Shown here piece by piece: positions 626 to 42,582 of a DNA stretch of 64,000 nucleotides (positions are counted from its first letter, which is position 1; each line of letters opens with the position of its first letter). The notes beneath the pieces were generated by a model. The model was not told where the DNA came from. It saw only the letters and a list, made by a program, of their open reading frames with translations, and ran no database searches. Both the position numbers and the translations under genes were made by a program. Origin of the DNA: Mumia xiangluensis (GTDB taxonomy: Bacteria > Actinomycetota > Actinomycetes > Propionibacteriales > Nocardioidaceae); NCBI RefSeq assembly GCF_010994095.1, contig NZ_WJYO01000001.1, positions 1,116,001 through 1,180,000 on the forward strand. Reading direction: 5' to 3'.

Positions 626-655
626 CGCTGGTCGAGGCGCGGAGCGATCGAGACC
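626..655 (+). repeat. solitary copy of the 30-bp CGCTGGTCGAG...ATCGAGACC repeat
   Basis: This 30-bp segment matches the array unit at 29.4-30.4 kb with one difference (G for A in the centre). It sits in the 46-bp gap between two convergent stop codons, the usual place for REP-type elements. Outer GGTC/GACC and inner CGC/GCG can pair into an imperfect hairpin. Confidence 0.85.
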
Positions 656-19154: not shown

Positions 19155-19936
19155 GGGGTTTCGACGCGCTGCGCTCGCTCAACGAGCGGTGGAGGGGGCG
19201 CAGCGCGTCGGGGCCGCGCCGCGAGCTCGCGGTGATCCGCGCCGACGACCGGTACGCGACGCGTCGCGACGGGATCACGACGCGCCACAGCTTCTCGTAC
19301 GGGGACCACTACGACCCCGACAACGTGGCGTTCGGTCCGCTGCGTGCGGTGAACGAGGAGCGGCTCGAGCCTGGCGCCGGCTACGACAGCCACCGGCACA
19401 GCGACGTCGAGATCGTCACCTGGGTTCTCGACGGCGCGCTCGCGCACGAGGACTCGACCGGCACGCGCGGGGTGGTCCGACCGGGCGAGGTGCAGCACGT
19501 CAGTGCGCGCGCAGGCGTCGAGCACACCGAGCGCAACGCGTCGGCGACCGAGCCGCTGCGTTTCCTCCAGATGATGCTCGCCCCGTCCGACGGCGAGCTC
19601 GCGGACCCCGATCCCGGGCCGCCGGCGTACCGGCAGTGGGACCTCCAGGGAGCCCGCGGATACCTTCTCGACGTCCTGCGGCTGCGCGACGGCGTCACGC
19701 TGCACGCGGCGCTGCTCGATGCCGGTGACGTCGTGGCACTCCCCGAGGACGGCCGGCTGCACCTGCAGGTCACGCGTGGACGGGTCGTGGTCGAAGGCAG
19801 GACGCTCGACGTCGGCGACGTGCTGCGCGCGACGGGGGACGGTCCGGTGCGTGTGACCGCTGACACGTCGTCCGAGATACTGGCGTGGCACTTCGCCGCC
19901 GAGCAGCCGCCCGGCAACGACCAAGGAGCATCGTGA
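19151..19936 (+). CDS. pirin family protein
   Basis: A 261-residue bicupin. The N-terminal cupin has the pirin metal-site pattern ([35 protein letters not shown]). Family members bind iron and act as quercetin dioxygenases or redox-linked regulators; which applies here is unknown. The GTG start at 19151 overlaps the metallopeptidase stop (GTGA). The stop overlaps the aroQ ATG by one base, completing a three-gene operon. The C-terminal cupin is poorly conserved, as usual. Confidence 0.88.
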
Positions 19937-28519: not shown

Positions 28520-28541
28520 CTCGCCGGGTACGTTCGTACCC

Positions 28542-29330
28542 ATGCGGATCGCCACCTGGAACGTCAACTCCATCCGTTCGCGCATCGACCGCGTCGCGGC
28601 CTGGCTCGAGCGCAGCGACGTCGACGTCCTGGCGATCCAGGAGACCAAGTGCCGCGACGACCAGTTCCCCGAGCTGTCGCTGCTCGCGGCCGGCTACGAG
28701 GTCGCGCACCACGGGCTCTCGCAGTGGAACGGCGTCGCGATCATCTCGCGCGTCGGGCTCGAGGACGTCCAGGTCGGGTTTGCCGACATGCCGACGTGGG
28801 GCGACCCCGCTGCCGCGGAGGCGCGGGCGATCTCAGCGGTCTGCGGCGGCGTACGCATCTGGTCGCTGTACGTCCCCAACGGACGCACGCTCGAGGATCC
28901 GCACTACGCCTACAAGCTGCAGTGGCTCGACCAGCTGCACGCCGACGCGACGGGCTGGCTCGCCGACGACCCCGCCGCGCAGATCGCGCTGATGGGCGAC
29001 TGGAACATCGCTCCCCGGGACGAGGACGTGTGGGACATGGCGAAGTTCGAGGGCAGGACCCACGTCTCCAAGCTGGAGCGCGAGGCGTTCGCGGCGTTCG
29101 AAGACTCCGGGTACGCCGACGTGGTCCGGCCGCACACCCCCGGGCCGGGGACGTACACGTACTGGGACTACACGCAGCTGCGGTTCCCGCGGCGTGAGGG
29201 CATGCGGATCGACTTCGCGCTGTGCACGCCCGCGCTGGCGGCGCGCGTGACCGCGGCGTCGATCGACCGCGAGGAGCGCAAGGGCAAGGGCGCGTCGGAC
29301 CACGCCCCGGTCGTCGTCGACCTCGCCTGA
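28542..29330 (+). CDS. xth: exodeoxyribonuclease III
   Basis: A 262-residue AP endonuclease/3'-5' exonuclease of the ExoIII family in base-excision repair. It has MRIATWNVNSIRSR, the metal Glu in LAIQETKC, the Tyr of WSLYVPNG, the catalytic GDWNIAPRDEDVWD, and the C-terminal SDHAPVVVDL with its Asp-His pair. Length is normal. Its 3' end runs straight into the first partial repeat of the left array (7 bp after the stop), so no separate terminator is seen; the repeat hairpins may serve. Confidence 0.95.
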   Translation: MRIATWNVNSIRSRIDRVAAWLERSDVDVLAIQETKCRDDQFPELSLLAAGYEVAHHGLSQWNGVAIISRVGLEDVQVGFADMPTWGDPAAAEARAISAVCGGVRIWSLYVPNGRTLEDPHYAYKLQWLDQLHADATGWLADDPAAQIALMGDWNIAPRDEDVWDMAKFEGRTHVSKLEREAFAAFEDSGYADVVRPHTPGPGTYTYWDYTQLRFPRREGMRIDFALCTPALAARVTAASIDREERKGKGASDHAPVVVDLA

Positions 29331-29336
29331 CGTCCC

Positions 29337-29776
29337 GGTGGTCGAGGCGCCCCTCCCGCTGGTCGAGGCGCCACCTCCCGCTGGTCGCTGCGTCCCTCCC
29401 GCTGGTCGAGGCGCGAAGCGATCGAGACCCCCACCCTCCGCTGGTCGAGGCGCCCCCCATCCGCTGGTCGAGGCGCGAAGCGATCGAGACCCCCACCCTC
29501 CGCTGGTCGAGCCGCCCCCTCCCGCTGGTCGAGGCGCGAAGCGATCGAGACCCCCCACCCTCCGCTGGTCGAGGCGCCCCCTCCCGCTGGTCGAGGCGCG
29601 AAGCGATCGAGACCACCGCTGCGTCCCTCCCGCTGGTCGAGGCGCGAAGCGATCGAGACCACCGCTGCGTCCCTCCCGCTGGTCGAGGCGCGAAGCGATC
29701 GAGACCACCGCTGCGCCCCCCATCCGCTGGTCGAGGCGCCCCCTCCCGCTGGTCGAGGCGCGAAGCGATCGAGACC
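29337..29776 (+). repeat. left repeat array: seven full 30-bp repeats plus seven partial copies
   Basis: Full copies begin at 29400, 29462, 29523, 29585, 29631, 29677 and 29747. Each starts CGCTGGTCGAG and ends ATCGAGACC. Start-to-start distances are 62, 61, 62, 46, 46 and 70 bp. Truncated 5' halves (CGCTGGTCGAGG-type) sit between them at about 29337, 29357, 29379, 29439, 29501, 29563 and 29725. The copies at 29585, 29631 and 29677 are separated by an identical 16-bp linker, ACCGCTGCGTCCCTCC. The last copy abuts the stop codon of the GIY-YIG gene. No protein-coding content is credible here. Confidence 0.95.
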
Positions 29777-30060
29777 TACCTCGGTGTTCGCCTCTTCGCC
29801 AGTGCAGACAGCGCAGCAAGATCGCCTCTGATCAAGGCCTCGCGCTTCGCGCGTGACCAGTTCTGGATGCGCTTCTCCCAGCCGTACGCCTCCGCAACGC
29901 TCTCCGTCTCCGCTGCGAAGACGAGGGTGATCGGCAGCCGACGGCGTGTGTAGGCGGCGCCGCGGCCCGAACGATGCTGGTCGATGCGCTGCTCGAGATT
30001 GCGGGTGCTTCCGACGTAGTAGCTGCCGTCGCTGCAGCGGAGGATGTAGACCCATGCCAT
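29776..30060 (-). CDS. GIY-YIG single-domain endonuclease flanked by inverted repeat arrays
   Basis: A 94-residue protein consisting of one GIY-YIG nuclease domain of the UPF0213/YhbQ group. Landmarks are VYI at residues 4-6 (the GIY strand), YYVG at 14-17 (the YIG strand), Arg25 and His29 in the catalytic helix, and metal-binding Glu62 in YGWEKRIQNW. All expected catalytic positions are filled, so it should be active. The C-terminus is basic (ALAKRRTPR). The stop codon overlaps the first base of the left array; the right array begins 56 bp upstream of the start. Being enclosed by mirror-image repeats suggests the nuclease acts on or spread with them; this is inference. Confidence 0.88.
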   Translation of the reverse strand: MAWVYILRCSDGSYYVGSTRNLEQRIDQHRSGRGAAYTRRRLPITLVFAAETESVAEAYGWEKRIQNWSRAKREALIRGDLAALSALAKRRTPR

Positions 30061-30115
30061 CGCACGAGTGTGGCGGTCGGCAGCGGCGGGCTACCCGGAT
30101 ATCCACAGGCGGGGT

Positions 30116-30485
30116 GGTCTCGATCGCTTCGCGCCTCGACCAGCGGTGGGGTGGGTGGTCTCGATCGCTTCGCGCCTCGACCAGCGGGAGGGACGCAGCG
30201 GTGGTCTCGATCGCTTCGCGCCTCGACCAGCGGGAGGGGGGCGGCTCGACCAGCGGAGCGGGTCTCGATCGCTTCGCGCCTCGACCAGCGGAGGGGTGGG
30301 GTGGTCTCGATCGCTTCGTGCCTCGACCAGCGGTGGGGTGGGTGGTCTCGATCGCTTCGCGCCTCGACCAGCGGAGGGGGCTGCTCGACCAGCGGTGGGG
30401 AGGGGGTCTCGATCGCTTCGCGCCTCGACCAGCGGTAGGGGGCGCCTCGACCAGCGGAGGGGGTCTCGATCGCTACGTGCCTCGG
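30116..30485 (+). repeat. right repeat array: seven full repeats in inverted orientation plus partial copies
   Basis: Full copies, reading GGTCTCGAT...CGACCAGCG, begin at 30116, 30157, 30203, 30261, 30303 (one mismatch), 30344 and 30405. A decayed copy begins at 30462. Half-copies lie near 30243, 30384 and 30445. The linker at 30187-30202 is the exact reverse complement of the 16-bp linker in the left array. In both arrays the GGTCTC end faces the GIY-YIG gene. The array ends about 60 bp before the decarboxylase start. Confidence 0.95.
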
Positions 30486-30546
30486 CGGGCGTGGATCGCG
30501 TAGGGTTTACGGGGAGACTCTCGACAAGCAGGAGGATTTGCGGCAC

Positions 30547-42400: not shown

Positions 42401-42582
42401 CCCATCTTCTGCTGGTCGGCCCCATCTTCTGCTGGTCGAGTAGGGCGGAGCGCCAGCGGAGCCCGTATCCCTCCGCTGGTCGAGTAGGGCGGAGCGCCAG
42501 CGGAGCCCGTATCGAGACCGGGTCTCGACCGGGGGGGTCTCGATATGTCCTCGCCCAGCGGCTCGGACTACTCGACCGGCGG
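42401..42582. repeat. type-B repeat cluster: two direct 40-46 bp units and one inverted unit
   Basis: Unit B1 (42431-42469) and unit B2 (42474-42519) are direct copies beginning GCTGGTCGAGTAGGGCGGAG. B2 ends ATCGAGACC. A GGTCTCGACC fragment (42521-42530) and a diverged inverted unit (42536-42582, GGTCTCGATATG...CTACTCGACCGG) follow. A 20-bp CCCATCTTCTGCTGGTCG-type duplication lies at 42401 and 42421. The ends match those of the 30-bp arrays near 30 kb while the centres differ. The rest of the 265-bp gap (42583-42662) shows no further structure. Confidence 0.85.

Follow-up and report, generated by a model that had tools for sequence, protein, structure and literature searches.

The nuclease gene and its repeat arrays

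We analysed a window of 64,000 nucleotides from the genome of Mumia xiangluensis, in which a GIY-YIG nuclease gene lies between two inverted arrays of a short repeat (Table 1). The gene encodes a single-domain protein of 94 residues, which matched the Pfam GIY-YIG model with E = 6.8e-20 over the complete domain. Residues Y5, Y15, R25, H29 and E62 were invariant in an alignment of 20 sequences, bearing out the sequence-only reading of this stretch, which had described a 94-residue GIY-YIG nuclease with its catalytic residues present. The top PDB sequence matches were UPF0213 proteins, with nuclease residues 3-77 matching BH0048 (1zg2) at E = 1.2e-16 and EF2693 (1ywl) at E = 1.5e-10; UPF0213 proteins are presumably akin to YhbQ. 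A model for group I intron endonucleases (TIGR01453) gave 22.0 bits, below its curated cut-off of 56.05. The names UPF0213, YhbQ and COG2827 were not found in the accessible part of the text of the GIY-YIG phylogenomics paper (PMC1564403).

The repeat is a 27-bp imperfect palindrome (GGTCTCGATCGCTTCGCGCCTCGACCA), present in seven full copies on each side of the gene in inverted orientation. Thirteen of the 14 copies were exact and one had a single mismatch. The left array (29403-29776) holds seven exact copies on the minus strand, and the right array (30116-30431) holds six exact copies and the mismatched one on the plus strand. The GGTCTC head faces the gene in 14 of 14, confirming on every copy the mirror-image arrays, seven full repeats per side and gene-facing GGTCTC ends that had been noted from the letters alone. 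The units had also been called short imperfect palindromes of 30 bp; the palindrome stands, and full copies are counted here as 27 bp.

Tails outnumber heads in both arrays (12 versus 7 on the left, 10 versus 8 on the right), revealing tail-only units. Most partial units retain the tail (CTCGACCAGCGG) and lack the head, the exception being the degenerate eighth right-hand copy, which is a head without an intact tail. In this small sample the tail excess looks as if copying might start at the tail and often halt early.

The nearest left copy and the nuclease stop codon overlap by one base, the first of the copy and the last of the codon. Repeats starting right at a TAG (TAG followed by GTCTCGA) were seen there (window 29776) and at G000:C1:1096050 and G000:C1:1256401. 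At the latter two places GCGTAG is also present in the sister species (G005), and the repeats look like insertions right after this common GCGTAG, though two cases are too few for a target rule. Among the 14 full copies, GTAG overlaps the start of one (at the nuclease stop codon), and neither GTAG nor CGTC precedes the other 13.

Table 1. Positions of the nuclease gene, repeats and associated elements in the window
Feature	Position	Strand	Remarks
Dispersed copy of the window repeat	629-655	-	One mismatch
Copy of repeat B (repeat of the second nuclease)	19157-19185 (G000:C1:1135157-1135185)	+	Three mismatches
Array 3' of the gene	29337-29776	-	Full 27-bp copies and tail-only units; heads face the gene
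Full 27-bp copies, 3'-side array	29403-29429, 29465-29491, 29526-29552, 29588-29614, 29634-29660, 29680-29706, 29750-29776	-	
GIY-YIG nuclease gene	29776-30060	-	94 aa, single-domain; stop codon within span
Upstream element TATCCACAGG	30100-30109		About 41 bp before the start codon; the nearest upstream repeat lies beyond it
Array 5' of the gene	30116-30489	+	Full copies, degenerate copy and tail-only units; heads face the gene
Full copies, 5'-side array	30116-30142, 30157-30183, 30203-30229, 30261-30287, 30303-30329 (one mismatch), 30344-30370, 30405-30431	+	
Degenerate eighth copy, 5'-side array	from about 30462	+	
Cluster of same-frame repeats other than the window repeat (GGTCTCGATACG/ATG...CTACTCGACC)	42478-42577		Counterpart site in G005 has two window-repeat copies

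Other repeat copies and a second nuclease in the same genome

Allowing up to three mismatches, the repeat was found at 91 places in the 4.62-Mb genome and the same pattern read backwards at none, which excludes a chance origin. Related copies had been placed earlier at 626-655 and 42401-42582. The first holds (629-655, one mismatch); at the second the window repeat is absent, and 42401-42582 contains none of the 91 places, its repeats (GGTCTCGATACG...CTACTCGACC) being different ones built on an identical frame.

A Pfam search of the window genome placed GIY-YIG matches at four sites, in short frames of 104 and 137 aa and in long ones of 680 and 683 aa. The second short nuclease (nuclease B, G000:C1:1045823-1046098) is 70% identical to the one in the window (nuclease A) and lies inside its own inverted array of another palindrome (repeat B, GGTTTCGACTCGCTTCGCTCGCTCAACCA), found at 87 places genome-wide. 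Counting copies no more than 5 kb away, nuclease A had 14 of repeat A and none of repeat B, and nuclease B had 10 of repeat B and none of repeat A.

Repeat flanking across nuclease loci

We examined 121 nuclease loci, of which 120 belong to Nocardioidaceae and L043 to a different family in that order; they are mostly the better-scoring among the matches listed rather than a random draw. Two weak matches (L044, L045) and a locus at a contig end (L059) were dropped before the counts on 81 and 121 loci, and the tandem duplicates L038 and L047 were both counted within the 121. At this last place (G018:C1:1392018-1392732) the nuclease is duplicated in tandem together with its repeats, and the two units are identical.

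A strict hairpin was defined as an arm, TCG[A/T], 4 to 44 bases, TC and the complementary arm, with GGTC, GGTT, CCTT or CCCT as arms. Such hairpins occurred in both 600-bp flanks of 99 of the 121 loci and in none of 240 controls, which were random positions in 20 of the same genomes without intergenic matching. At least one flank was positive at 106 of 121 loci as against 9 of 240 controls, leaving 15 loci with a hairpin in neither. A motif-free test, in which one 500-bp flank was scored for its best inverted match to the other, gave a match of at least 16 at 94 of 121 loci (66 of the first 81) and at 2 of 240 controls. The gene-nearest copy pointed its head inward in 97 of 104 cases upstream and 83 of 101 downstream. 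Orthologues of the gene are thus normally repeat-flanked, the outcome for which the sequence-only reading had asked.

We also compared 80 named loci from inside and outside the family, of which 18 are genes already counted among the 121 and four had a flank shorter than 200 bp. A flank match of at least 16, whether inverted or direct, was found at 68 of 76. Outside the family (family names and three ambiguous names omitted, and 2 of 54 left out for short flanks), 45 of 52 loci had an inverted or direct match of at least 16, 34 of 52 an inverted one, and 35 of 52 strict hairpins in both flanks. These loci include Microbacteriaceae, Gordonia, Janibacter, Arthrobacter, Chloroflexota and others; among nine Chloroflexota loci an inverted match was seen at two and a direct one at seven.

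We also considered mobile replicons as the usual carrier and rejected them, as the search gave two viral relatives, distant at 43% identity, and 42 plasmid records, none of which reached 60% identity. Flanks were inspected for four plasmid records and one viral contig. Two of these five, both Alphaproteobacteria, had an inverted flank match, namely a Methylobacterium plasmid (L331; 18) and a Sphingomonas plasmid (L332; 16). The viral contig (L329) had a direct match of 28, and two further plasmid records (Sphingomonas L333 and Vibrio L334) had no flank match above 10.

Cognate pairing of nuclease and repeat

Pairs of loci were compared for a shared 18-mer in their flanking hairpins, omitting those 15 of the 121 that lack a strict hairpin. 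None of 30 same-genome paralogue pairs had an 18-mer in common, the one identical tandem duplicate pair, in which all are common, being set apart. Across genomes, sharing was seen in 21 of 23 pairs at 85% protein identity or more, 36 of 80 at 75-85%, 88 of 928 at 65-75% and 200 of 4503 below 65%. The absence of sharing among paralogues indicates that the repeat goes with the nuclease and not with the genome. Common descent adds to the sharing across genomes, and the high value at 85% identity or more may be plain common descent, but it cannot account for the difference between paralogues of the same genome. When each nuclease was compared with its closest counterpart in another genome, the stem arm was the same in 87 of 110 cases, with 40.7 expected by chance.

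Remote copies were sampled in 60 stretches of 20 kb elsewhere in the genomes, which gave 132 hairpin-like places, many of them resembling coding background. A 16-mer in common with the flanks of a nuclease of the same genome was found at 22 of the 132, with 3.1 expected when another genome's were used; of these 22, a single one fits two paralogues, and five belong to one array in G003, so that not all are independent. At L032 (G004) and L033 (G002) both nucleases adjoin one same gene, which we take to be guaA, and their flanking repeats are wholly different.

On the protein side, position 67 was Gly in 40 of 42 nucleases with GGTT-arm repeats (two unread), and Asn, Arg, Lys, Thr or Asp in 34 of 52 with GGTC-arm repeats (Gly in 17, one unread). 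Its mutual information with the arm exceeded that of shuffles, which ignore relatedness, and a tree-based test had just two usable pairs. Position 67 is put forward as a lead, a candidate specificity residue.

Repeat frame, stem arms and folding

The repeats follow a frame of a four-base arm, TCGA, a variable middle, TC and the complementary arm. Arms on each side were counted independently, using an arm list picked after an earlier look at the data. Complementary pairs were GGTC/GACC (272 copies), GGTT/AACC (195), CGTC/GACG (37), CCTT/AAGG (36), GATC/GATC (14) and CCCT/AGGG (12), and the largest off-diagonal cell was GGTC with GTCC (21 copies at 7 loci). A quick tree built from 110 nuclease rows shows at least 18 changes of arm type. 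Together, the near-diagonal table and these changes indicate that double changes have occurred again and again and kept the arms complementary, a pattern that points to pairing or to a dyad recognised by two subunits; paired arms could equally be a dyad read in duplex DNA. TCGA at the 5' arm and TC at the 3' arm leave an unpaired TC, making the palindrome directional.

Folding of the free single-stranded 26-mer was weak (-4.0 kcal/mol, z -0.84), and six repeat sequences folded as single-stranded DNA gave z values from -1.66 to +0.87. A stable single-stranded hairpin is unsupported by this folding of single repeats, and the weak values speak against a very stable one.

Repeat abundance across genomes and the search for another enzyme

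We counted repeats in 294 genomes of Nocardioidaceae, of which 159 had a nuclease match (E <= 0.001) and 135 had none. The generic repeat used for this purpose (GGTYTCGA...TCRACCR) gives counts that include background and miss other arms. The median was 104 (interquartile range 60-182) in genomes with a match and 28 in those without (AUC 0.88), and 81 of the 90 genomes with at least 100 generic repeats had a match. The expectation of the sequence-only reading that repeats are scarcer where the nuclease is lacking was thus supported, and the link is not absolute: at least 60 repeats were present in 22 of the 135 match-less genomes, and fewer than 40 in 21 of the 159 with a match.

Ten match-less genomes were searched with the Pfam model, eight with at least 100 generic repeats, G032 with 74 and G001 with 24. 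No standalone GIY-YIG protein was found in these ten, all matches lying in frames of at least 274 aa. The eight repeat-rich genomes with GIY-YIG matches solely in large frames are G005, G312, G253, G228, G227, G233, G303 and G084, and their repeats are either orphans or those of another partner enzyme. In the sister species G005 there were at least 30 exact copies of the window repeat, but neither a nuclease match nor a short GIY-YIG frame. This state would be explained if the nuclease was lost and the repeats outlived it, and another enzyme acting on the repeats of G005 is possible.

A RAYT was tried as the hidden partner and rejected. No Y1 transposase (PF01797) was detected in 24 genomes, which include that of the window and nine that are repeat-rich and match-less (G005, G084, G171, G227, G228, G233, G253, G303 and G312), using a model that finds matches in 5 of 14 control genomes. 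In these 24 genomes a Y1 transposase is therefore not the enzyme behind the orphan repeats, in agreement with the earlier reading, in which the arrays held no nuclease gene other than the GIY-YIG one.

Island history and upstream element

The surroundings of the locus are largely collinear with G005, with 55 matching stretches of at least 700 bases making up 268 kb of the 400 kb compared; those above 2.5 kb are in unchanged order and 73-90% identical. The nuclease A island is missing at the corresponding place in G005. By eye, G001-G004 have no island there either, and xth is divergent from a decarboxylase gene. The xth gene (exodeoxyribonuclease III, window 28522-29368) is inverted relative to G005 and, by eye, relative to G001-G004, with the inversion breakpoints at or adjoining the island. 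The island is thus absent in G001-G005, but with the neighbouring xth inverted there this is no clean empty site.

In 400 kb of the window genome we found 28 motif clusters, 13 of them comparable with G005. Four were filled in both species, three of these with a different repeat family, and nine had no full motif in G005; three of the nine are background, equal in length in both species. Different repeat families at the same sites suggest site re-use or conversion, the numbers being small.

CTGTGGA or TCCACAG was present within 120 bp upstream of the nuclease at 111 of 121 loci, downstream at 1 of 121, and in 19 of 1200 random 120-mers. It occurs in either orientation, a median of 8 bp from the nearest upstream hairpin (105 loci with a hairpin found), and was seen at 55 of 79 named loci and at none of nine from Chloroflexota. 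We take this TGTGGA/TCCACA element to be DnaA-box-like; that nuclease expression is tied to replication is a guess from this likeness.

Relation to known systems

In PMC3733652, REPtrons (RAYT/REP/REPIN) are described in which an enzyme gene can have its own repeat flanking it, along with CGTC REPs, Neisseria dRS3 among them, that are apparently without a dedicated transposase. The present system resembles RAYT and REP in its short dispersed palindromes (91 places) and in the inverted copies around the enzyme gene (99 of 121 loci). It differs in that a GIY-YIG enzyme takes the place of a Y1/HUH transposase (found in 0 of 24 genomes), and in that 13 of 14 full copies here have no GTAG or CGTC foot tag before them.

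The Ssn enzymes (site-specific single-stranded nucleases) of Neisseria and others (Chenal et al., Nat Commun, 2025) are reported to be GIY-YIG proteins that cut a dispersed repeat in single-stranded DNA and have many homologues with other targets. The likeness to these features lies in a GIY-YIG nuclease with a multi-copy dispersed repeat around its gene, which here would be the target. Set apart from Ssn as so reported are the inverted arrays with inward heads, the TCGA...TC frame with paired arm changes, the several mutually distinct pairs per genome and the upstream TGTGGA element. The window system could belong to the Ssn nucleases as one of their branches, and a GIY-YIG nuclease with a dispersed repeat as target is probably already known. 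Within a limited literature search, what looks new is the multi-pair, arm-covarying, inward-array form across Actinomycetota.

A proposed nuclease-repeat pair and alternative explanations

The association is real, broad and specific, and we give a probability of roughly 0.7 to the reading that the locus is a functional nuclease-repeat pair. This rests on comparison between genomes, i.e. orthologue flanking, inward heads, cognate pairing, paired arm change, the genome-wide association and the missing Y1 transposase. That relatives of the gene in other actinobacteria usually lie among repeats of their own, differing in sequence, suggests matched evolution of enzyme and repeat. The functional link proposed in the sequence-only reading gains support in particular from the flanking (99 of 121 loci) and from repeat abundance (AUC 0.88). 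More tentatively, and at a little under even odds, we propose a GIY-YIG counterpart of RAYT/REP in Actinomycetota, with weaker evidence in Chloroflexota and Alphaproteobacteria, in which each nuclease would drive or hold its own TCGA...TC palindromes, with several orthogonal pairs per genome and at least 18 stem switches. In the main reading, the small GIY-YIG protein of the window would recognise its own imperfect palindrome and, most likely, nick one strand at the asymmetric head while the repeat is present as a single strand or has been extruded into a hairpin or cruciform. From that nick, repair or copying would multiply, convert or preserve copies, including the inverted ones that bracket the gene, and gene plus repeats would act as a unit, selfish or domesticated, that can be compared with RAYT and REP. 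Binding and nicking by the nuclease, a single-strand preference and a copy number driven by nicking are the steps that we infer.

An Ssn-type self-marker has a real if lesser-than-even chance of being the correct explanation. The repeat would be cut solely in single-stranded DNA (e.g. transforming or conjugating DNA), and repeats would mark or protect stretches of the host genome without being spread by the nuclease. The single-domain GIY-YIG protein, its UPF0213 relatives and the dispersed repeat, as reported for the Neisseria Ssn, speak for it, but taken alone it leaves unexplained the inverted arrays flanking the gene, the tail-only units and the different repeats at the same intergenic site in the sister species (three sites). 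A passive cassette, in which nuclease and flanking repeats travel together by recombination with the enzyme inactive on them, and other copies arise via general recombination or another enzyme, appears unlikely. Linkage alone would yield the sharing among orthologues, gene and repeats are duplicated in tandem in G018, and G005 keeps repeats without a nuclease. Against this, repeat abundance tracks nuclease presence over the 294 genomes, remote copies fit the repeat of their own nuclease more often than that of another genome, and paralogue pairs, the tandem duplicate excepted, never share a repeat (0 of 30).

We consider it similarly improbable that the gene is a homing endonuclease that homes into the repeats as mere recognition sites. 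GIY-YIG is a homing-endonuclease domain (PMC1564403), and the island is absent at the corresponding place in sister genomes. The gene is, however, flanked by whole inverted copies and not by two halves of one split site, and the group I intron endonuclease model scored 22 bits against a cut-off of 56. That the repeats are terminators or chromosome-structure signals, with the nuclease among them by chance, is strongly disfavoured and highly improbable: they are palindromic and three stand directly at a TAG, but flanking, inward orientation and cognate pairing would not be expected.

Implications

Most genomes with a nuclease match contain from tens to hundreds of places with palindromes of the form GGTYTCGA...TCRACC (background included), and no partner enzyme for them was found in a limited literature search. 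If the proposed counterpart of RAYT/REP is true, a partner would be named for a very common class of orphan repeats of GC-rich bacteria, and a cognate nuclease would make the origin and upkeep of these palindromes directly testable. The family would likewise be a natural library of cognate nuclease-target pairs. With its many pairs, paired arm changes and differing paralogues within one cell, it would be a data set on how a nuclease of 90 residues reads its site, and such learning could serve site-specific nicking tools.
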